Both the position numbers and the translations under genes were made by a program. From Spartobacteria bacterium (GTDB taxonomy: Bacteria > Verrucomicrobiota > Verrucomicrobiia > Chthoniobacterales > UBA10450), in assembly GCA_003167555.1 (NCBI GenBank), contig PMSN01000025.1, forward strand, positions 62,001 to 126,000: a stretch of 64,000 nucleotides of DNA, read 5' to 3'. Positions 1,097 through 44,781 of this stretch are shown here, piece by piece. How positions within the stretch are numbered: the stretch's first letter is position 1; each line of letters starts with the position of its first letter. The notes under the pieces are model-generated. The model saw only the letters and a list, made by a program, of their open reading frames with translations. It did not search any database and was not told the DNA's origin.

Positions 1097-2338
1097 ATGT
1101 ATTCCTCAACGAGCGAGCAGGCGATGGATGTCACGTCGCCGGGCCAGACATCCTTACCTCGAGGCCCTGATCTCGCCAGTGAGATTGAATTGTCAATAGT
1201 CATGCCCTGCCTTAATGAGGCGGAGACGGTGGGCGCGTGTGTGGGAAAGGCGGTGGCATGGCTTGGGAGTAATGGTGTTAAAGGCGAAGTTATCGTCGCG
1301 GACAATGGGAGCACCGATGGCTCGCAACAAGTCGCGCGAGCTGCGGGAGCGCGCATTGTGGATATAGCGCCGCGAGGTTACGGGAGCGCGTTAATGGGCG
1401 GGATTGCGGCGTCGCGCGGGAAATTCATTATCATGGGGGACGCGGATGGCAGCTACGATTTCTCCGACTTGGGAAGCTTTGTCAGTCGGTTGAGGACGGG
1501 AGCGGATCTAGTGCAGGGATGCAGGTTGCCGTCGGGGGGAGGTCGGCTAATGCCGGGTGCAATGCCCAAGTTGCACCTCTGGTGGGGTAACCCAATGTTT
1601 TCCGCCATGGGACGGCTTTGGTTCAGAGCGCCGATTCACGATATCTACTGTGGGCTTCGTGGATTTACTCGTGAGTGTTACGACCGTCTGGGCTTGCGGT
1701 CCACCGGGATGGCGTTCGCCACGGAAATGATCATCAAGGCGAGTCTGTTCGGGAAGAAGGTAACTGAAGTGCCAATTGTCTTGTATCGAGACGGTCGCAA
1801 GAGTCACAAGCCGCACTTGAAGACATTTCGCGATGGCTGGCGGACGCTGCACCTTTTCCTGATGTACTCGCCGCGCTGGCTCTTTGTTCTTCCTGGATCG
1901 CTTTTGATCGCGCTTGGCGTAATTGCTTATGCGCTCGCGCTGCCGGGAGTTTCCCTATCCGGCGCCAAGCTGGACGCACATACACTCCTCTTCGGCAGTC
2001 TGGCGATTCTTTGCGGATTCAACTCAATCTGGTTTGCCATCATGACGAAGCTCTTCGCCGCCACGGAAGGAATGCTTCCCGACGACCCCTTGCTAAATCG
2101 GCTAATGAAGCTAATCGATAGCGAAAAAGGTTTGATGGCGGCTTTTGTGGGAGGCTTAGCCGGCATCGGGTTGCTGCTCGTGGCCATTAATCGTTGGCGA
2201 CTTGTAGGTTTTGGCAACTTGGATTACGCGGCCGAAATGCGCCTCGTCATTCCGGGCGCCACCCTTAGTGCTTTGAGTTTTCAAATGATATTGGCCATCT
2301 TTTTCATTGATATCTTGAAGCTGCACCGGAAGGGCTAG
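1097..2338 (+). CDS. Family 2 glycosyltransferase, dolichyl-phosphate-mannose-synthase-like, with C-terminal membrane helices
   Basis: The 413-aa product has a GT2 (GT-A fold) domain at about residues 30-240: LSIVMPCLNEAETVG at the nucleotide-sugar site, ADNGSTDGS, and the metal-binding DADGSYDF. After about residue 255 there are four hydrophobic helices. This DPM1-plus-membrane-anchor architecture matches bacterial polyprenyl-phosphate glycosyltransferases that charge undecaprenyl phosphate with a sugar for lipid-linked glycan assembly. The start is ATG at 1097 behind a weak AAAGG; a second ATG at 1127 is possible. Its 3' end overlaps the convergent GT4 gene by 35 bp. Family assignment is firm; the sugar donor is unknown. 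Confidence 0.88.
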   Translation: MYSSTSEQAMDVTSPGQTSLPRGPDLASEIELSIVMPCLNEAETVGACVGKAVAWLGSNGVKGEVIVADNGSTDGSQQVARAAGARIVDIAPRGYGSALMGGIAASRGKFIIMGDADGSYDFSDLGSFVSRLRTGADLVQGCRLPSGGGRLMPGAMPKLHLWWGNPMFSAMGRLWFRAPIHDIYCGLRGFTRECYDRLGLRSTGMAFATEMIIKASLFGKKVTEVPIVLYRDGRKSHKPHLKTFRDGWRTLHLFLMYSPRWLFVLPGSLLIALGVIAYALALPGVSLSGAKLDAHTLLFGSLAILCGFNSIWFAIMTKLFAATEGMLPDDPLLNRLMKLIDSEKGLMAAFVGGLAGIGLLLVAINRWRLVGFGNLDYAAEMRLVIPGATLSALSFQMILAIFFIDILKLHRKG

Positions 2339-3524
2339 TTTCACGATCGAGGAGTGCCAGGTAATCCCTCTCAACTCGTTCCCAGGAGTAACATCGCTGC
2401 ACATACGCCTGGCCCTGCCGGCCGAGAGTGCGCTTTGTGCCTTCATCGACAATCGCCAAGGCCGCGCTCCACTCCTGAAAGTTGTTATACCAGAGCCCGC
2501 CGTGGGACTCACTGCAATGGCTGGTCAGAACGTCGCATGATCCATTGACGAGGGCGGGGCGGCCAACGCTCCAGGTTTCCAACAGAGCCATCGAGAGGCT
2601 CTCGTACGGAGACGGCACCAGCAGCCAGTCACACGCGCTCATAGCTTCCCATTTGTCTTCGTCGCCGACAAAACCGAGATGAATGATGTCGTCGTGAAAC
2701 GGAATGGGCATCACTTCTGTTCCGAGCAGGACCAACTTGTGAGGAGTGCCTCCTTCGCTCTTCCAGCGGAGAAAGTAATCAAACATCGCGGTACATCCTT
2801 TCGATTCGTCGATGCGACCGACATAAAGAAGAAAGGGCTCGGTTATTCCATAGCGCAGGCGAAAGCGTTCGGGGTCGAGGTTCTTCGGAGGTTCGATGCC
2901 AACCCCAATGACTGGACCGTCCTGGGAAAGGCGAGGGAATCGATGCCGAACTAATTGGCGTTCGGCATCGGTGTTGAAGATGAAGGCTTTCGGCAAGGCG
3001 AAGAAACGGTCCCACATGTTGAAGTAGATTGTCCACTCGTCGTGTGCGAGCGGCGCCAGGAAGGCTTTATCGCGGACAATGGGAAGGCCGAAGTAGCTTG
3101 TCGCGTAGAGATATCCGAAGAAGACAAAAACATCATAGGAGTTTGCGTTTGAGCGCAGGTAGTTCAGCAAGGAGGTAGAGAGAGGACCTTGTGCCCGCAT
3201 CCAAGCTTCCTGTTCGGCCAGCGTAGCGGTCTCTCGCCGCGGGTTCAGTTTCTCGGACAAGGCATTAAACGTTTGGACATCGCGGGGCGTGTCCACAGGA
3301 AAGCGTCGAATCAATGTGCTTCCTACTTCTTCGACTCCTTCGGGATAAAAATTCTCCCAGGTCATGTAGTCCAGGGCGCAGGTCGTAAGGACTTCCGTGG
3401 GCCAATGCCGGGCCACGCGTTGGGCAATTTGCAGGCAGAGGGATTCGGCCCCGCCGTTGACCTCAGTGCCGGCTCGCTGGACAACGAAACCTACTCGAAA
3501 GGTTGCACGCTTTAGCGGCTTCAT
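2304..3524 (-). CDS. Family 4 glycosyltransferase
   Basis: The 406-aa product is a GT-B-fold glycosyltransferase. The N-terminal Rossmann half carries VNGGAESLCLQIAQRVA, an acceptor-side glycine-rich loop. The C-terminal half carries LLYVGRIDESKG and the EX7E-type segment around SPYESLSMALLETWSVGRPALV, with the two glutamates expected for GT4 donor binding. It closely resembles the N-terminal half of the double glycosyltransferase at 7324-9687, suggesting duplication within the locus. The start ATG overlaps the stop of the upstream methyltransferase gene (4 bp), so translation is probably coupled. Acceptor and donor cannot be read from sequence. Confidence 0.88.
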   Translation of the reverse strand: MKPLKRATFRVGFVVQRAGTEVNGGAESLCLQIAQRVARHWPTEVLTTCALDYMTWENFYPEGVEEVGSTLIRRFPVDTPRDVQTFNALSEKLNPRRETATLAEQEAWMRAQGPLSTSLLNYLRSNANSYDVFVFFGYLYATSYFGLPIVRDKAFLAPLAHDEWTIYFNMWDRFFALPKAFIFNTDAERQLVRHRFPRLSQDGPVIGVGIEPPKNLDPERFRLRYGITEPFLLYVGRIDESKGCTAMFDYFLRWKSEGGTPHKLVLLGTEVMPIPFHDDIIHLGFVGDEDKWEAMSACDWLLVPSPYESLSMALLETWSVGRPALVNGSCDVLTSHCSESHGGLWYNNFQEWSAALAIVDEGTKRTLGRQGQAYVQRCYSWERVERDYLALLDRETSPSGAASRYQ

Positions 3525-4729
3525 GTCACCCGCACCCGAATCGATCGGGGCTGTGATCCGAGGATTTCGAACCAGGAAACTCCCTCCGATACTAAATCGA
3601 AGGCTACGGTGAATGTTCCGCGCGAAGGAAATTGGAGAAACGCTGTGGTGCGCACCTCCTGATTCGGCAAGACATTATCGCCAAGGGCGTGTCTCGAAAA
3701 ATTCAGCTCAAGAAGATTACCATTTTCATCATAAAGATGCGTGCCGAGCTTAACGACGCCGACTCCATAAACGTTGTCAGTAAGCCACTGAGCGGTGCCG
3801 TTGTTAGAAATGGTTACGTCCATGTGCAACGGTTCCGCCAGCGAAGTTTCAAACTCGGACTTTCCGATGTGGATAATGTGTGAAAGTCCGTCGGAACCTC
3901 TGCTGTCCGGAACGAATGCTCCTTTATATAGGAAGAAAATCGTCTTCTCCGTCATGGCATGACGGATATTCGAAAGGACAGCGTCGTCCAAGGCAACTGT
4001 ATCACTCTGCGTAGGCGTGCCTTCTTCCGAATTGTTCAAAAGCGTATTGTACTGTCCCAAGGTGAGTTCCATGTTGCTGACCAATTTGCAAGAAACCCGG
4101 GAGAAACCCGCCTCTTTGGCGAGTGAGAAGATTGTGGTGAGGTCGATGTCGTTCTCGAGGACGCCGTAGTTCTTCATTTCCATCTGTGATTGAGGCTTCC
4201 TAGAGTGATGTTTCCCTGGTTCGCTGAAACCGGCGATGCCACCGTGGTGTAGGATTCGCGCAAATTCCGAGAGAACGAGCCGTTGATCTGGAACGTGGTG
4301 AAAAGCGTCATTGCAAACGATTCGGTCTACCGCGCCATCGGGAAGATCGATATGCTTTCCATCGAAAGGAAGGAAGCGAGGCTTAAATACACCGTCGCCC
4401 AAGAGTGGCAACTCCGTGAACAGCCGTTTCCCGATTTCCAAAGCGGCCTCTGAGACATCGCACGAAATCGTCTGGCATTGTAATTGACTGAGGATTCGCG
4501 AAAACCAACATGGCCCGGCCCCAAAATCCAGCACGGTCATTGTCTTCCCAAGGTGCAAGCCGGATAAGAGAAGGCCAATATTTTGGAGCAATTCAGGGGC
4601 CTCGACGAGAGACGAAAACGGCTTAATCATCCAAGGCGTCGGATCCGACAGCGATTTGAAATAGTTGTTGGCCGTCCGACAGAGGTGTTCGACGCTCGTC
4701 TCCCGGGCAAGTTGTTTTGGGTCAATCAC
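3521..4729 (-). CDS. SAM-dependent methyltransferase with C-terminal beta-sandwich domain
   Basis: The 402-aa product starts at GTG 4729, which overlaps the upstream TGA (GTGA). Residues about 50-200 form a class I methyltransferase: VLDFGAGPCWFS is the SAM-binding glycine motif, followed by ISCDVSEAALEIG and IVCNDAFHHVPD. Residues about 295-400 (HMDVTISNNGTAQWL through FDLVSEGVSWFEILG) form a separate beta-rich domain that recurs inside the methyltransferase at 6128-7327. In glycan loci such domains plausibly bind carbohydrate. It probably methylates a sugar of the surface polysaccharide; the target is unknown. Confidence 0.82.
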   Translation of the reverse strand: MIDPKQLARETSVEHLCRTANNYFKSLSDPTPWMIKPFSSLVEAPELLQNIGLLLSGLHLGKTMTVLDFGAGPCWFSRILSQLQCQTISCDVSEAALEIGKRLFTELPLLGDGVFKPRFLPFDGKHIDLPDGAVDRIVCNDAFHHVPDQRLVLSEFARILHHGGIAGFSEPGKHHSRKPQSQMEMKNYGVLENDIDLTTIFSLAKEAGFSRVSCKLVSNMELTLGQYNTLLNNSEEGTPTQSDTVALDDAVLSNIRHAMTEKTIFFLYKGAFVPDSRGSDGLSHIIHIGKSEFETSLAEPLHMDVTISNNGTAQWLTDNVYGVGVVKLGTHLYDENGNLLELNFSRHALGDNVLPNQEVRTTAFLQFPSRGTFTVAFDLVSEGVSWFEILGSQPRSIRVRVT

Positions 4730-5504: not shown

Positions 5505-6086
5505 TCAACCCTTCGAGAGCTCAAGACTCAGGCAACAAACGCCTAGGACCCGGGGATCCGCATTAAGTCCCAACGCCTTGGGCGAAGTAGCTTTTGGTGT
5601 TTTAAGAGTGATGGTGAGCTCGCCACCTTTCTTGGTGATATCATGGGGAATCGCCGCGACGAACTCCGAGACATCGCCCACCTGCCAGTCCGCCATCTTC
5701 TGGCCGTTGACTTCCACTTCGACTGGCTGAAACGGCAGGGCCGGTTCTTTCATCAGCCCGGACAGCCTCATCTTCAGGGTGACCGAGGCAGTCGTGGCGG
5801 CGATTTTCATTTTTAATGCGGCGACCGTCCCTTCCGTCCACGTAAACTTCTCTTCGGTCTTGCTCCAGCCGGATTCCCGGAAGCGCTCGGAGCCGCCACC
5901 CTGCCCAAAACTGACCGTCGCTCCGTAAGCAAGCTCCGCGGAGCCGGCGGAAACGTCTGCGTCGTCAAGCGGGCTGGAGCGATTACAGGCACCAAGAGAT
6001 AAGAGGAGCAGGAGGAGCAACGCTGAGGCCCCGATTGATGTGCGGCCAGTGGGCCTTTCCTTAGCTAAGACTGGAGTTGCTGACAT
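5505..6086 (-). CDS. Predicted lipoprotein with C-terminal beta domain
   Basis: I chose the ATG at 6086 (193 aa) because it gives a short basic N-terminus, a leucine-rich helix and the lipobox LSLGAC, with cysteine acylation expected. The earlier in-frame start adds 13 unlikely residues. The mature protein ends with VEVNGQKMADWQVG and ADPRVLGVCCLSLEL, a beta-strand pattern seen in accessory domains of polysaccharide-locus membrane proteins. It sits between two methyltransferase genes of the same operon, but with 131 bp and 41 bp gaps rather than overlaps. Exact function unknown. Confidence 0.6.
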   Translation of the reverse strand: MSATPVLAKERPTGRTSIGASALLLLLLLSLGACNRSSPLDDADVSAGSAELAYGATVSFGQGGGSERFRESGWSKTEEKFTWTEGTVAALKMKIAATTASVTLKMRLSGLMKEPALPFQPVEVEVNGQKMADWQVGDVSEFVAAIPHDITKKGGELTITLKTPKATSPKALGLNADPRVLGVCCLSLELSKG

Positions 6087-6127
6087 AGGGATGAAATGAA
6101 CTAGCTTATCCTCGAAGTCAAGCACGG

Positions 6128-7327
6128 CTAGGATGACAATGAGCTGTGCTCGTCGGCTCGCGGGGCTTTGACAGCGCGAGCGAAATAGAAATAGCCTGGA
6201 TAACCCGGGCCCCCTACGTCAGTGGGCACGATGAATTCCAGCTGCATTCCGTGTTGATGAAGAAGGGCGACGACTTCACGGCGAGGGATGTAGTGCATGC
6301 TGAACCCTTCAAACGCTTCCTCGACGGCAGGCGGCGCGTCCCCAAGATTCCCGGGGGGTCTGATGTCCGCGTCACTGGGCGCCATCGGTTCTTCGGCAGC
6401 GCGCGGAAGGATTTCCACGGGTAGCCGTAGCGTCTGCGCTCCCTTGTTCTTGAACCAGGCAATGCCCTCTTGAACCAAGTCGAGCTCAATCGTGTAGCGC
6501 CCCGCGGCGGGAGGAGTCTTCACATCGAGAGTAAGGCCAACCGTTTCGCCGGGTCGCACTACTTGCGGCAGCACGGCGCGCCCATCATCCTGCCGGATCA
6601 TCTGGCCCGCTTCATCGAGCCAATGGTTGCCGAGCATGATGGGTTGTCCCGGCTCACAGGGCCACAGAACAGGGCTTGTATTCTGGACGCTGACCGCCAG
6701 CGTTGCCCGTGACGAAGACAACCAGGATAACTTTTGCTCTGGGCAATGAATCGAGGTTGAGTAAGCGGCAGCAGGCAACCCTTTTTCGTTTTTGAACTGG
6801 CTTGGAAGCTGGAAAATCACAAGCCCGCCGGGCTTTAGAATCCGGCCAAATTCAGCCAGATAGTTTTTGGCCACCTCCGGTTCCATGTGCTGGAGAACGA
6901 TATTGGAATAGACAAAGGAGAATCGATCGTCCTCAAAAAGACGCAGATCAGGCCGCGCGTTGAGATGGTAGGTGCACTTTTCCTGGTATTGGTTAAGGTT
7001 TCGGGCGTTTTCGATCATGGTCGGAGAGATATCGACGCCGCAGACTGACTCGAAGGAGCGCGCGAGAGCTTGCGTTAGGCGGCCGACGCCGCAGCCGAAG
7101 TCAAGTGCTGAGCTCCGCTCAAATTCAATATCGTTCGAAGAAAGTGTCTCCAACAATTGATCGATCTCGTGCCGGCCGGTTTGGAGGAATTCATTAAGGT
7201 CCCATTTGCCGCCCATCTTTCCGGGCGTGGAGATAATCGCCCAAAGTGGATCGTCCTTGGCATGGGTCTCCCAGACGTTTTGGAGCCGCTCCAATACCTC
7301 TCCCTGGTCCTTAGCAGTGTTTGTCAT
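6128..7327 (-). CDS. SAM-dependent methyltransferase interrupted by a beta-sandwich domain
   Basis: The start is ATG 7327, fixed by the ATGA overlap with the upstream gene; the longer frame to 7462 lies inside that gene. The 399-aa product has a class I core: SALDFGCGVGRLTQALA (motif I), CGVDISPTMIENA, SFVYSNIVLQHMEP and PGGLVIFQLPSQF. Near residue 205 the core breaks off and about 130 residues of a beta-rich domain follow (VSVQNTSPVLWP, GNHWLDEAGQ, IELDLVQEGIAWFKNKG). The final methyltransferase strand then resumes (SMHYIPRREVVALLHQHGM, YFYFARA). The inserted domain is homologous to the C-terminal domain of the protein at 3521-4729. Probably a glycan O-methyltransferase. Confidence 0.82.
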   Translation of the reverse strand: MTNTAKDQGEVLERLQNVWETHAKDDPLWAIISTPGKMGGKWDLNEFLQTGRHEIDQLLETLSSNDIEFERSSALDFGCGVGRLTQALARSFESVCGVDISPTMIENARNLNQYQEKCTYHLNARPDLRLFEDDRFSFVYSNIVLQHMEPEVAKNYLAEFGRILKPGGLVIFQLPSQFKNEKGLPAAAYSTSIHCPEQKLSWLSSSRATLAVSVQNTSPVLWPCEPGQPIMLGNHWLDEAGQMIRQDDGRAVLPQVVRPGETVGLTLDVKTPPAAGRYTIELDLVQEGIAWFKNKGAQTLRLPVEILPRAAEEPMAPSDADIRPPGNLGDAPPAVEEAFEGFSMHYIPRREVVALLHQHGMQLEFIVPTDVGGPGYPGYFYFARAVKAPRADEHSSLSS

Positions 7328-9687
7328 GTCGAATACGCGGCGACGATCTGCTTTACGATCTCGGTAAGGCGCAACGAGACATTCCCTGGCAGAAAGCTGA
7401 GACGGCGCTCGGCCTGGCCGCGAATAAGTTTTTGGCGAAGCGCTTGGTCTTCGATGATGCATCGGGCCAGTGCGGCGACTGCCGCCAGATCGTTCTTCGC
7501 GGTGAACATGAGGGCCGCATCGCCGAGCGTTTCCGGAACCGCGGAGCTTTTGAAGGCAAGGACCGGAACGTTAAACCACATGGCTTCGATGAGCGGGACG
7601 CAAAAGCCTTCGTGCTCGGACATCGACCAGAAAAGATGGGCCGTGCGGTAATAGGCGGCCAGTTGTGCGTCGATGATACTGCCAGTGAAAAGGACGGATT
7701 CTTCCAGACCTAGTGATGCCACTACTTGACGCAAGTGCGCCACGTATGGATCTTGTTCTTCCGGCTTACCCACCAGGATTAACCGAGCATCCGGATCAAG
7801 TGCCAGGTAATGAGAAAAGGCAACGATCAAGTCGTCCTGTTTCTTGTTAGGCGCAAAGCGGCCGACGAAGAGGAGATTAGTCCTGCCATCATGAAGCACG
7901 TCCATTAACTGTGGGTCGGGAGAGATGGACCACTTATCCGGGTTAACCGCGATGGGCAGGACGCCTGGTTCTTGGAAGCCGGCATCCGCCAGCTCGAGAG
8001 CATTGTACGCAGAATCGCCGCAGGAAATCGGAAAATAAGCAGCTAGACGATGCAGTTCCTCGCGACCTTGTGCGAGGATGGCTGCGAACTCGGGTCGATA
8101 AGGCTGAAAGAACTCGGCGGGAGTAATGTTATGATAGATAAGGCATTTCGGGCCGTGGAAAGCGACGAGGTGGGGAGTAAGCTCTGTGCCGATGCTATGG
8201 TGGTAGATCGCCGCGTCGGCAGCATGCAACGCCTCCGGTTTGAAAGCATGGCATTGATGGGTGACGCGGACATCGATGTAACGGACGTAGATCTCCGATC
8301 GGAACCCAAGCGTGCGCAGCTCGTCGCGAATCCAGATGGCGTGATTCGAAATGGCATCGCCATACTCGAGGTTCGGCAGGAACTGGTTGATCGCTTTGTC
8401 CTGTTGTCCGTCGACTACCTGTGGCTCTCGCGGAGTTTCCGATTCGAACAACGCACCTTCATAGCGTTCCATGACGGCATTCCAATCGGCGGCCACTTCG
8501 GCGTAGCGTCTTCCCTTGTCGCCCAGCTCGCGCAGAGCTTTCTCGGGGGTGCGATCGAGCTCGACGAGCAGACGCGTCCAATCCTCTTCCGAGTCCGCGA
8601 GCCAGCCCGCGCCTGTTTTTCTAACTGGAATTGCAGTCGCTGGACAGCGGGCGTGAGCCGCCACCGGTTTCCCATGCAGCCATGCTTCCATCATTACCCG
8701 GGAGAAGCTTTCGTTTTGGCTCGGCTGCATCAAAGCGACACAATCACGCAGTAGCTGTAGTTTTCTTTCTTCGCTCACTAATCCCAGGTCCTCGGTGCCA
8801 TGGTCGCCACCATTCAGATCGAGCGCACCGTTGCCGGCAAGAAGGAGACGAAGCGATGAGTTAGGCCGGACGGCGCGAAATCGGGCAAAGGCGTGTAAGA
8901 GAAGCGGCACGTTCTTTCCCGCATCCTTGCGGCCCAGGTAAAGGAGAAAACGATTGGGAGGAGGCGATTGCGGAGTAGTGGAGGAATGGAGCGATGGAGT
9001 GATGGCAGGCGCAGTGCCATTCGATGCGGCTGGGACGACATCGACTTCCACACCTTCGCCTACGAGGACGGACTTGGTCCAGATGCCGGGGCCATAAAGG
9101 CGCAAAGCCAGTTCCAGTTCGCCTTCACTGTTGAAGAGGAGACGCTCGGCGCGGTAGAATGCTTCAGCTACTTCGGGCAGGTAAGCGTAAGACTCATCAT
9201 GCAGGCATGGTTGAAGGAATGCCTGGCGACCCAGGATGTCGATAGCGTGCAAGACCGGCCCATACAGATAAGGCAGCAGAATGAACGCGCGATAGTCTTG
9301 TTTGTTCTCCTTTAGGTGTTCGAGGAGCGCTGGCGCCTTGATAAGCTCGTTCACGAAGACGCTGGAATCGTCAGCGCTCACCGGCGGCACGCCCGGTTTC
9401 AGCGTCGCCGGATCCAGACTTAGCAGATTCCCACAGACTCGATCGAAGGCGGCGCGATCGCGCGGCACTACTGGGAACCGGCGCACGGCAAAACCTTCGT
9501 GCTCCATCGACAAGCCATCGGGGAGATGATTCGTTCCCCAGTCGTCCTGGTGCGAGCGGCAGCAGGTAGTCAGCACTTCCACATGATGTCCCCGGCCGGC
9601 CAGACGCGTCGCAATCTGCCAGGCTTGTTGCTCGGCGCCGCCCTTTAGCTCACGGCCGAACCAGGGGATAATGATCCCCAGCTTCAT
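7324..9687 (-). CDS. Bifunctional protein with two family 4 glycosyltransferase domains
   Basis: The 787-aa product contains two GT-B units. Unit 1 (about 1-410) opens with LGIIIPWFGRELKGGAEQQA and carries FLLYLGRKDAGKN and PSQNESFSRVMMEAWLHGKP. Unit 2 (about 425-787) carries FLPNLEYGDAISNHA, NLLFVGRFAPNKKQDDLI and SMSEHEGFCVPLIEAMWFN. Each unit has its own EX7E donor site, so two different linkages could be made processively, as in the multi-domain mannosyltransferases of O-antigen systems. Both its start and its stop take part in 4-bp ATGA overlaps with neighbouring genes, so it is translationally coupled inside the operon. Confidence 0.88.
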   Translation of the reverse strand: MKLGIIIPWFGRELKGGAEQQAWQIATRLAGRGHHVEVLTTCCRSHQDDWGTNHLPDGLSMEHEGFAVRRFPVVPRDRAAFDRVCGNLLSLDPATLKPGVPPVSADDSSVFVNELIKAPALLEHLKENKQDYRAFILLPYLYGPVLHAIDILGRQAFLQPCLHDESYAYLPEVAEAFYRAERLLFNSEGELELALRLYGPGIWTKSVLVGEGVEVDVVPAASNGTAPAITPSLHSSTTPQSPPPNRFLLYLGRKDAGKNVPLLLHAFARFRAVRPNSSLRLLLAGNGALDLNGGDHGTEDLGLVSEERKLQLLRDCVALMQPSQNESFSRVMMEAWLHGKPVAAHARCPATAIPVRKTGAGWLADSEEDWTRLLVELDRTPEKALRELGDKGRRYAEVAADWNAVMERYEGALFESETPREPQVVDGQQDKAINQFLPNLEYGDAISNHAIWIRDELRTLGFRSEIYVRYIDVRVTHQCHAFKPEALHAADAAIYHHSIGTELTPHLVAFHGPKCLIYHNITPAEFFQPYRPEFAAILAQGREELHRLAAYFPISCGDSAYNALELADAGFQEPGVLPIAVNPDKWSISPDPQLMDVLHDGRTNLLFVGRFAPNKKQDDLIVAFSHYLALDPDARLILVGKPEEQDPYVAHLRQVVASLGLEESVLFTGSIIDAQLAAYYRTAHLFWSMSEHEGFCVPLIEAMWFNVPVLAFKSSAVPETLGDAALMFTAKNDLAAVAALARCIIEDQALRQKLIRGQAERRLSFLPGNVSLRLTEIVKQIVAAYST

Positions 9688-11507
9688 CGCGCCGCCGGCT
9701 TGTAGGCTATGACTCCAAAATCCTGCGGCCCGTAAAGCAGGTCCTTCACGATTGCCAGTTCCTTTGTCCTAGCGTCGAACTTCACGTCGGCCACGGGCGC
9801 GAGGTATTCGATTTGGATCCGTTCGAACCCGTGGCTTTGCAGCATAAATTCAGCGGTCTCAGGAAAGACTGGATTACGATGGGTAGGATCGATGTTGAAT
9901 TGGGCGGCGCCAACGACCAGGTTCTTGCAATTGGGCGACTCGAAAATCGCGACGCCTCCCGGCTTGAGGATCCGCCGTGCTTCTCGAAAGAAATCCATCA
10001 AGGTCTCGAACGGCAAATGTTCGATGATGTGAAAGCCGGTCACGCCCCCCTGGCTGTTCGCACGGAGTGAGCGCATGTAATCGATCGCGTCCCGATGAAT
10101 GACCTCGAGATCGTGTTCCTTGCACTGGGCGATCATGGCCGAGTTAAGGTCTACGCCGCGAGCATCCAGCTTGTTCTCCTTAAGTAGCTCGAGCCACTCA
10201 CCGCGCCCGCATCCCAGGTCCAGGATGGGCCGGCCTTTTTCCCCCGCACGAGCGGAAGCAAGAAAGGGCAGGTAGAACTGGACACGCTTCTTGATCTCGG
10301 CGCGCGAGCCACGAAATCGGTTTTCGAAGCTGAGGTAGAATGAATCCAGCGCGCGCGCGTGTCTCTTGTCACGGGCATCGTCAACAGTAGCTCGTTTCCC
10401 GGCCGGAACCTTCGCGCGGCGATCTGTTCCCAGGATCTGCTGTAAGAGTGACTGTTGTTCGGATAGCTCTCCCTTGACGAAAATGGCGTCGTTTGCTTGG
10501 CGCTCGCTTAGTTGCTCGAGACTGTGTTGCACCGTGTCGGCCTTCGCCGTCTGTTGATCGACAAAGCCTTGCAAGTTGTTGATGTGGACGCCGAGGCGGT
10601 CCGCTTGCCCTTGCAGATTTTTCAAGTGCGCCAGCGCATGGTCGATCTGTGCGTCGCGGTTGCCTTGCTTGAACTGTGCATCCCAGTGCGCTTCCAACTG
10701 CCCGAGATGACCGCCAGTCGCATCTGCTTGTGCCTGCAAGTTTCGCAAATGCTCGCCCGCGCGATCCATCTGCAGTTGCAGGTCGTCCGCGGTCGTATGG
10801 GTGAGAGCGATCTGCAGTTGCAGGTCGTCCGCGGTCGTATGGGTGAGAGCGATCTGTTGTTGCAGGTCGTCCGCAGTCGTATGGGCGAGAGCGACCTGTT
10901 GTTGAAGGTCGGTCGTGGCTGAGTGCACGAGATTCACTTGCTCGAGCGCTTGGGTGGTCTTCACCCCGTTTGCGTCTATCTGGGCGCCCAGCTCTGCCTC
11001 GAGCCGGTGCAACTCATTTTCCTGCGCGGCGATCATCGAGATGGCGGGGGTCGCGGCCGTCATCCAGGTCGCATCGGCTTCGCGATGTTGATTGAGGGCG
11101 AGGAGCCAGCCGTTGAACCGCTCGAGGCACAAGGCAATCTCGCGCACTCTCTTGTTCAACTCGACACTGCTCTGCGCGAGCACGCCGAGACTCTCCAGCA
11201 CGCTCGTGTTGTAGGCGCCTTGTTTGCGAAACAATCCGCGCAGGAACTTCGGAATGATCGAACTGACTCGCGTCTTGCTTCGCGCGTTCTGGAGCAATTG
11301 GTCGAGCCGTTCTTTTTTCGGGTTGATGGGCTGCGGGATTTGGACTGCCGGCACCGGTGGTAAAACAGCGATCGGCGGCAAAGCCGGCGGAACCAGTGCG
11401 GGAACCCGGCGCACCCGGCGCGGCCGCTCCCTGATCCTGGCCGCCTCCGCCCGAACGCGCTCCATCAACTCGTTGACGTCGATTTCGGGGTTGGTCGATT
11501 CGATCAT
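9684..11507 (-). CDS. Coiled-coil methyltransferase, candidate chain-length ruler
   Basis: I place the start at ATG 11507 (607 aa); an upstream in-frame codon at 11525 adds six residues. Residues 1-90 contain a Pro-rich linker. About residues 90-390 are a long Gln/His/Asp-rich coiled coil containing near-identical 14-residue repeats (IALTHTTADDLQLQ type). Residues about 390-605 are a class I methyltransferase: ILDLGCGRGEWLELLKE (motif I), DARGVDLNSAMI, HIIEHLPF and RILKPGGVAIFESPN. The stop overlaps the next gene by ATGA. Known parallel: WbdD uses a coiled coil to set O-antigen length before capping it by methylation. A similar role here is an inference. Confidence 0.85.
   Translation of the reverse strand: MIESTNPEIDVNELMERVRAEAARIRERPRRVRRVPALVPPALPPIAVLPPVPAVQIPQPINPKKERLDQLLQNARSKTRVSSIIPKFLRGLFRKQGAYNTSVLESLGVLAQSSVELNKRVREIALCLERFNGWLLALNQHREADATWMTAATPAISMIAAQENELHRLEAELGAQIDANGVKTTQALEQVNLVHSATTDLQQQVALAHTTADDLQQQIALTHTTADDLQLQIALTHTTADDLQLQMDRAGEHLRNLQAQADATGGHLGQLEAHWDAQFKQGNRDAQIDHALAHLKNLQGQADRLGVHINNLQGFVDQQTAKADTVQHSLEQLSERQANDAIFVKGELSEQQSLLQQILGTDRRAKVPAGKRATVDDARDKRHARALDSFYLSFENRFRGSRAEIKKRVQFYLPFLASARAGEKGRPILDLGCGRGEWLELLKENKLDARGVDLNSAMIAQCKEHDLEVIHRDAIDYMRSLRANSQGGVTGFHIIEHLPFETLMDFFREARRILKPGGVAIFESPNCKNLVVGAAQFNIDPTHRNPVFPETAEFMLQSHGFERIQIEYLAPVADVKFDARTKELAIVKDLLYGPQDFGVIAYKPAAR
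10767..10930. repeat. Tandem 42-bp repeat inside the coiled-coil gene
   Basis: About four head-to-tail units of 42 bp, the central ones almost identical (core GCAGGTCGTCCGC with GTCGTATGGG). Forty-two bases encode 14 residues, exactly two heptads, so unit gain or loss by slippage would lengthen or shorten the coiled coil without breaking the frame. Confidence 0.9.
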
Positions 11508-11671
11508 GGTGGCCGCTCTTCGCACTCACTGTTTCGCCCGGACTATCGAAAAATTCAACCGTGGCACTGTAGTCACGGGCCCGATGGGCCGTCCCGAGAG
11601 AGCGAATGATGCGGGTATCTTCGAGCGCCCCGCAGGCCCGCGGCTGCCAGGGCGGACCGCGAACAAGAATG

Positions 11672-11744
11672 TGCACCGCGTTGGAATCGAACCAACAACC
11701 CAGTGATTAAGAGTCACTTGCTCTGCCAATTGAGCTAGCGGTGC
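11672..11744 (-). tRNA. tRNA-Lys (anticodon CTT)
   Basis: Read on the minus strand, the 73 nt fold as a complete cloverleaf: acceptor GCACCGC/GCGGTGC, TA at positions 8-9, D-stem GCTC/GAGC, anticodon stem AGTGA/TCACT with loop CTCTTAA (anticodon CTT), T-stem GTTGG/CCAAC with TTCGATT loop, discriminator A. The 3' CCA is not encoded. It lies 165 bp upstream of the coiled-coil methyltransferase start. Confidence 0.96.
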
Positions 11745-44089: not shown

Positions 44090-44362
44090 ATGATCAAGAA
44101 AATATTGCTCCTTGTGGCGGTTGCCGTCACGAGCGTTACTTTCGGGTCCGCCGTTCAGGCGGAAGGAATTCGGATCGAATTGGGTGACCGGGCATTCTAC
44201 AATCATGGCCCGCGTTACTGGGACAACGACTTCGAAATGATTTGGGAGCCCGGCCATTGGTCCGAGCACGGACATCATTGGATCCACGGCCACTACCGCC
44301 GCGGCGAACATCGCCGCCACGAAGACCACCGCCGCGACGACCGCCACGATGACCGCCACTAA
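44090..44362 (+). CDS. His-rich secreted protein
   Basis: The 90-aa product has a Sec signal (MIKKILLLVAVAVTSVTFG, cleavage near VQA), then WEPGHWSEHGHHWIHGHY and a C-terminal tail of alternating His, Arg and Asp. Such tails bind zinc, nickel or copper weakly and are often found near metal exporters; the P-type ATPase lies 1 kb away. A strong terminator follows 21 bp after the stop. Confidence 0.75.
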   Translation: MIKKILLLVAVAVTSVTFGSAVQAEGIRIELGDRAFYNHGPRYWDNDFEMIWEPGHWSEHGHHWIHGHYRRGEHRRHEDHRRDDRHDDRH

Positions 44363-44383
44363 TTAGCGTCAGGTAGGATTGAT

Positions 44384-44425
44384 TCGGGCTCGGCGGCTGA
44401 AGAGCTGCCGGGCCCGATTTCTTTT
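44384..44425 (+). terminator. Rho-independent terminator after the His-rich gene
   Basis: TCGGGCTCGGCGGCT pairs with AGCTGCCGGGCCCGA around a GAAG loop: a 15-bp stem with two G-T wobbles, followed by TTTCTTTT. It is the clearest terminator in the window. Confidence 0.9.
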
Positions 44426-44781
44426 GCGATAGCGGCGGCCGGCGATTGCTTCTTATTTCCGACCTCCGTCCTCTGCCCTCCGCCTTCTGCCTTCTGCCTT
44501 CTGCCCGTTCGGCGTTCGGCGTTTGCTTTCCACGTTGCCCATCGCCGAAGTCTGTTGCCTTGCCCTCTCGCTTCGGATTACTTTCCTGGCGTCGTGCGCG
44601 CTCTTCCCCTTAAGCCCAATCACAAACGGGTTACTGTATGCGTGACGAGTTGAAGAATGCCCTGGAGGAATTCGCGCGCTTTGGAGCTTCAAAGGCGATG
44701 AGAAGAGCAAGGCGGCAAGCCTTTCTCGAGCATTTTTCCCGTGCGCCCGGAATAGTGCGCTATATCTGACCTGATTCTCCA
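44426..44781. other. Region upstream of the STAND-like gene
   Basis: Contains three 7-bp tandem units CCTTCTG (44483-44503), GGCGTTC repeats, the second copy of the degenerate direct repeat, and a 43-codon frame (44638-44769, MRDELKNALEEFARFG) ending 12 bp before the large gene. That short frame has GC-typical codons but no family and no clear ribosome binding site, so I do not call it a gene. Confidence 0.5.
44547..44636. repeat. Degenerate direct repeat, copy 2
   Basis: Partner of 43702-43790; same motif order, roughly four-fifths identical by eye. It ends just before the short frame upstream of the large STAND-like gene. Confidence 0.7.

Follow-up and report, generated by a model that had tools for sequence, protein, structure and literature searches.

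A methyltransferase of the O8-WbdD family with reversed domain order and a tandemly duplicated coiled-coil unit, encoded beside a double GT4 glycosyltransferase

Strain-specific WbdD proteins catalyse a terminating modification that regulates chain length (PMC3482155; this and all other papers are cited for the portions accessible to us). In E. coli O9a and K. pneumoniae O3, WbdD combines a methyltransferase (MTase), which comes first, with a kinase and then a coiled coil, and its partner contains two glycosyltransferase (GT) modules (PMC3482155, PMC11231755). Insertions or truncations in the O9a coiled coil alter chain length (PMC5082667), and terminators are described as positioned at the distal end of the coiled coil (PMC11231755). 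In E. coli O8 (K. pneumoniae O5 type), WbdD is described as a simple methyltransferase (PMC3482155); here too the MTase comes first, and a long coiled coil follows it. K. pneumoniae O7 ORF6 and O12 WbbB have the coiled coil between terminator and polymerase modules, the terminator (a kinase in O7, a Kdo transferase in O12) being N-terminal and fused to the GT modules (PMC11231755), and the MT protein of E. coli O101/O162 has an N-terminal MTase and a C-terminal coiled coil that is suggested to act as a ruler (PMC13168486). Thus, wherever the accessible text states the layout of a coiled-coil terminator, the catalytic part is N-terminal (PMC11231755, PMC5082667, PMC13168486).

The protein described here shares with O8 WbdD the MTase family, the lack of a kinase, the long coiled coil, the adjoining GT enzyme and a tandem duplication in the coiled coil, which in O8 WbdD is found in some copies; however, its domain order is the reverse, and whereas O8 WbdD sits with wzm and wzt, the genome in question appears to have neither. 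Like O9a WbdD, it joins a methyltransferase to a coiled coil and is paired with a partner of two GT modules, but the Pfam scan found it kinase-free. The location of the coiled coil between terminator and polymerase modules is shared with O7 ORF6 and O12 WbbB, although neither the N-terminal position of their terminators nor the fusion to GT modules is, and the combination of MTase and coiled coil is shared with the O101/O162 protein in the opposite order.

The gene occupies positions 9684-11507 on the reverse strand of the window, by which we mean the whole 64,000-nucleotide stretch of a Spartobacteria bacterium contig that was analysed; genomes and loci are given G and L handles, G000 being the window's genome. 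It encodes 607 amino acids. The ATG at 11507 was favored over the GTG at 11525, an alternative start in the open reading frame listing, because homologue starts align there: MIE[ST] was found at the equivalent position in four of seven full-length homologues and in the G034 fragment. From the N- to the C-terminus, the protein consists of a conserved motif (MIESTNPEIDVNELMERVRAEA), a Pro-rich linker, a basic segment (IPKFLRGLFRKQGAYN), a predicted coiled coil and a class I SAM MTase. Residues 79-96 (TRVSSIIPKFLRGLFRKQ; 11220-11273, reverse strand) are conserved in the homologue alignment and form a basic, amphipathic stretch that is a candidate membrane or docking element; its hydrophobic moment of 0.62 and net charge of +5 lend weak support to possible membrane binding, 49 of 1000 shuffles being equally high. 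The predicted long coiled-coil spacer (aa 100-358; 10434-11210, reverse strand) was placed by heptad periodicity and by the helix at 78-358, with two short breaks, of a whole-protein AlphaFold model (two-row alignment; mean pLDDT 49.2, pTM 0.34). Since this model and that of the MTase domain (two-row alignment; mean pLDDT 52.1, pTM 0.51) were both of low confidence, they carry no weight. The SAM MTase domain of the O8-WbdD type (aa 384-607; 9687-10358, reverse strand) was recognised by alignment with the O8-type WbdD and by a match to PDB 3dli_A (E = 9e-37). The Pfam scan of the protein returned MTase families alone (Methyltransf_25, Methyltransf_11 and Methyltransf_23) and no kinase family, which bears out two observations of an earlier note on this DNA, namely that the coiled coil precedes a C-terminal MTase and that no kinase domain is visible.

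The closest characterised kin of the MTase was reached by tblastn of plasmid records (60 records listed): the window's domain is 48% identical over 175 amino acids to the MTase of an O8-type WbdD encoded on an E. coli plasmid (BLASTP E = 2e-48). The plasmid gene sits in an O8-type locus of the order wzm-wzt-MTase-GT; its record names the product a methyltransferase domain-containing protein, and its identity as O8 wbdD is our own reading of its position between wzt, which is annotated as O8 family, and the GT gene. The best PDB match was 3dli_A for both proteins, and the O9a WbdD entries were absent from the PDB matches of the window protein (E up to 1) as well as from those of the O8-type relative. 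Judged by these sequence matches, the window protein is a member of the O8-WbdD methyltransferase family, and a role as a stalk-mounted terminator is plausible. Since O8 WbdD is itself no more than a methyltransferase, the missing kinase is what would be expected for this branch and does not, contrary to the earlier note, mark a distinct version; novelty on this ground was rejected, O8 WbdD being equally kinase-free (PMC3482155). The likeness to WbdD drawn in the same note holds as kinship, but does not extend to the export partners by which the WbdD pathway is defined, as Wzm and Wzt_C were not found in the window's genome. Since the domain order and the presence of Wzm/Wzt in the genome were both tested and both differ from O8 WbdD, we do not file the window protein as a WbdD. 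In searches of viral contigs, two stretches fitted a pattern with the window protein and 68 were returned with profile A1, with no relative in either case; the L031 row of that profile is about 10 codons short, and its length of 614 is therefore an underestimate. The named genome collection contained one relative of the window protein, in Billgrantia.

The reversed order was then found to be common. The MTase is last in 26 of the 35 delimited family genes and first in nine; these counts leave out L062 and L069, in which the frame is broken, the fragments L037 and L038, and L075, in which the gene was not delimited. With 26 of the 35 members sharing it, the reversed layout characterises a widespread branch of the family and does not set this locus apart. 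Thus, where coiled-coil-first had been proposed as a distinct version, the layout itself is real but not special to the window. When a quick tree was built from the MTase domain, a single branch of weak support (67) separated MTase-last from MTase-first genes, and none of 500 label shuffles scored as low. No paper describing the reversed form, i.e., an MTase after the coiled coil, was found in the open-access literature searched. Two other arrangements were seen on the way. In two genomes, representing another family, a separate gene of 180-187 amino acids with the motif D.LM..IR.EV lies upstream of the MTase gene (L072:8402-8965 and L101:11325-11867), and L067:6050-10663 encodes a 1537-residue protein with the MTase at its start, among genes that we take, from reading their sequences, to be flagellar-type.

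The partner gene (7324-9687, reverse strand) encodes a double GT4 glycosyltransferase of 787 amino acids, with two Glycos_transf_1 stretches and an E-x7-E motif at 326 and again at 693, and the junction sequence is an ATGA stop/start overlap of the two genes at 9684-9687 (reverse strand), through which their translation may be coupled. The two stretches and the two motifs bear out the double GT4 partner of the earlier note, and the overlap its link to the gene. A partner with more than one GT4 module, as in the O8-type WbdD system, is thus present, its polymerising role being putative, and in the window's family a GT4 gene adjoins the MTase gene in all 10 loci. One genome contains a second gene of this type (L030:17097-18284), cut by the contig end and again adjoining GT4 genes. 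In the window, Pfam identified a further GT4 gene of the same locus at 2304-3524 (reverse strand) and three other MTases; one of the further MTases (6128-7462, reverse strand) has a weak match to the Ig-like N_BRCA1_IG family, and the end of another (3521-4729, reverse strand) looks similar by eye to this N_BRCA1_IG-type sequence. A predicted lipoprotein at 5505-6125 (reverse strand), with an unnamed beta-sandwich-like domain whose fold is a guess, had no Pfam match and no convincing PDB match, and is probably part of the glycan locus. The same unnamed domain was also seen in a large flanking protein, in a small protein encoded ahead of the MTase, and as a C-terminal extension of Wzt in another genome (L073, aa 443-590); its sites outside the window include L029:18829-19224 and L072:8519-8926. 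A tRNA-Lys gene (11671-11744, reverse strand) borders the locus upstream and is a possible insertion point.

The explanation that we prefer, tentatively and with slightly less than even confidence, is that of a glycan-capping MTase of the O8-WbdD family with reversed polarity, acting on a GT4-made chain and mounted on a spacer whose length can evolve. The conserved N-terminal segment would dock close to the membrane, to the GT4 partner or to both; the long coiled coil, enlarged by in-frame tandem duplication, would present the MTase at its distal, C-terminal end; and the MTase would methylate the non-reducing end of the chain that the double GT4 enzyme builds, whereupon growth would stop. The data show that the MTase is homologous to that of O8 WbdD, that the layout is reversed and widely so, that the gene is linked to GT4, that the spacer has a heptad period, and that duplications in relatives are confined to the spacer; docking, trimer formation, capping and the setting of chain length by spacer length are inferred.

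Within the coiled coil, TRF found a 42-bp tandem array comprising three complete 14-residue units and part of a fourth (10768-10911, reverse strand; 3.4 copies, 94% matches, score 232). When the codons of the coiled-coil part were shuffled 500 times, an array scoring at least 40 arose in 25 cases, and no score exceeded 59; the near-identical 14-residue, 42-bp units that had been noted earlier are thus genuine. The units are DLQQQVALAHTTAD, DLQQQIALTHTTAD and DLQLQIALTHTTAD, followed by five further residues. Between copies 1 and 2 there are two nucleotide differences, neither of them silent, and between copies 0 and 1 two silent and two non-silent ones. Because the copies are near-identical at the DNA level, the array is taken to be a recent DNA duplication, and the repeat itself suggests that it may be prone to slippage. 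The heptad register is continuous across the array. Hydrophobic periodicity over aa 150-358 had its peak at 3.50 residues, a strength equalled in 8 of 500 shuffles, and the same period was found in G030, G028 and G039 (0 of 500 shuffles each), though not in every relative tested. By this heptad period, the MTase is joined to a long coiled coil, as in an O8-type WbdD. Elsewhere in the window, short tandem repeats of 7-15 bp occur at 44314-44506.

Arrays were also found by TRF in relatives, with periods of 21 bp (G030, G028), 105 bp (G039), 54 bp (G906, in a stretch that contains Ns) and 96 bp (G326). Five of the 35 family genes, namely those of the window, G039, G326 and G415 and the O8-type wbdD, contain an exact tandem duplication of at least 24 nt; the duplicated units, of 14, 35, 32, 18 and 52 amino acids, lie without exception in the spacer and keep the reading frame. 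Only two of the five are heptad multiples, and the rule that units are always whole heptads was rejected. The other three count against our preferred explanation; the earlier suggestion that length could change is supported in so far as the spacer changes length in frame in relatives. All five lengths are 0, 3 or 4 mod 7; it is to be noted that this pattern was recognised after the fact in a small sample, for which a hand calculation under a uniform null gives (3/7)^5, or about 0.015, and that G326 and G415 belong to one genus.

Change within a single gene was seen in the O8-type wbdD, the nearest CHARACTERISED relative, which is 1434 bp long on E. coli pECO-5e72 and on a Serratia plasmid. In the coiled-coil part of the pECO-5e72 gene, 156 bp are exactly duplicated, in tandem and in frame, the variable unit of 52 residues not being a heptad multiple, and the Serratia gene matches the pECO-5e72 gene 100% in one piece; the duplication-bearing records are NZ_CP026400.1 (L099:2831-4264) and NZ_CP020505.1. 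Among plasmid records, two of six had the 1434-bp form and four a span of 1278 bp. An O8-type wbdD match was found in 303 of 5426 E. coli genomes, and of the best 60 of these 303 records, 59 spanned 1278 bp and one, pECO-5e72, 1434 bp. Three one-copy records among the matches listed were 100.0% identical to the two-copy wbdD over the rest of the gene. Thus, coiled-coil copy number can change within otherwise identical genes.

Between species, the spacer, measured from the PK.LR to the FRG motif, was 297 residues in the window protein, 295, 336, 273, 188 and 422 in relatives, and 323 in G001 (hand-read from the alignment). This 2.2-fold range, from 188 to 422, counts against the preferred explanation, since a fixed ruler need not vary so. 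It would suit a coiled coil that only oligomerises or scaffolds the MTase and the GT4 enzyme, its length being free and the 42-bp array a neutral, recent duplication. We regard this alternative as rather unlikely, the WbdA/WbdD precedent being one in which coiled-coil length sets chain length (PMC5082667, accessible portion), even though G001, the nearest relative, has no array, exact tandem duplications of at least 24 nt are absent from 30 of the 35 family genes, and termination coupled to Wzm/Wzt was not found in G000. That the five exact duplications all preserve the frame, fall in the spacer and leave a remainder of 0, 3 or 4 also speaks for more than free length, but the coiled-coil geometry that is kept in this way would be needed by a scaffold as well.

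Of 30 loci outside the window's family, 21 have Wzm or Wzt in the stretch fetched, which favours the preferred explanation; by layout, the count is 13 of 18 MTase-last loci outside that family and six of nine MTase-first loci. For these counts, the reference Wzm and Wzt were partly taken from the same loci, and Wzt was verified by Pfam in two loci and by annotation in others. Neither was found nearby in any of the 10 loci of the window's own family, which counts against the preferred explanation. In G000, of 98.14% completeness, there was no match to Wzt_C, which matched in 4 of 16 genomes. Of the 11 genomes searched with a Wzm query, 5 had a match (among them the genome from which the query came), and G000, G001, G027, G028, G030 and G033 had none. 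ABC2_membrane had five matches in G000, of which the only short one, a GldF-like permease, stands with genes that, from their sequences, we take to be GldA-like and GldG-like. The Wzm/Wzt exporter with a cap-reading Wzt_C, a feature of the O8-type WbdD system, was thus not encountered in G000; the step in which the cap is read for export is missing, and this counts against reading the protein as a ruler. Glycan export in the window organism would then proceed without a recognisable Wzm/Wzt.

The Wzx-like family PF13440, in turn, has four matches in G000, and such families would be in keeping with an MTase that decorates a glycan of another pathway, Wzx-dependent or protein-linked, without terminating chains. 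On Roseobacter plasmids (L091, L095 and L100), MTase and GT genes lie near type I secretion genes, with DUF4214 in two of the three, a context that suggests a glycan on a secreted surface protein. Because some relatives adjoin type I secretion or flagellar-type genes, the family does not serve one pathway. These type I secretion neighbours, a GT fusion among flagellar-type genes and the three other MTases of the locus would all accommodate decoration, but none of the four PF13440 matches is on the window's contig (C12), every locus of the window's family pairs the gene with a GT4 gene, and the closest characterised relative is a terminator (PMC3482155, accessible portion); we therefore consider decoration improbable. 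That the 42-bp array is an assembly artefact, for which its near-identical copies and the single assembly of the species could be cited, is highly improbable, given that the array spans 144 bp with copies that are not all identical, lies inside a 398-kb contig, and has analogues in independent genomes.

Capping by a GT4-linked, reversed MTase thus remains our preferred explanation. A more far-reaching form of it, which is possible but which we hold to be doubtful, would be a ruler of reversed polarity, with an N-terminal anchor, a C-terminal capping MTase and a coiled coil that evolves by in-frame, tolerated units (0, 3 or 4 mod 7); it would be common next to Wzm/Wzt, and members of the window's family would use it to control chain length without Wzm/Wzt export. 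If the reversed family also measures chains, it is the distance between anchor and MTase that would matter, and not the polarity. The natural variants in repeat number, including the one- and two-copy forms of the O8-type wbdD, would then be ready tests of the ruler model and of the evolution of glycan length.
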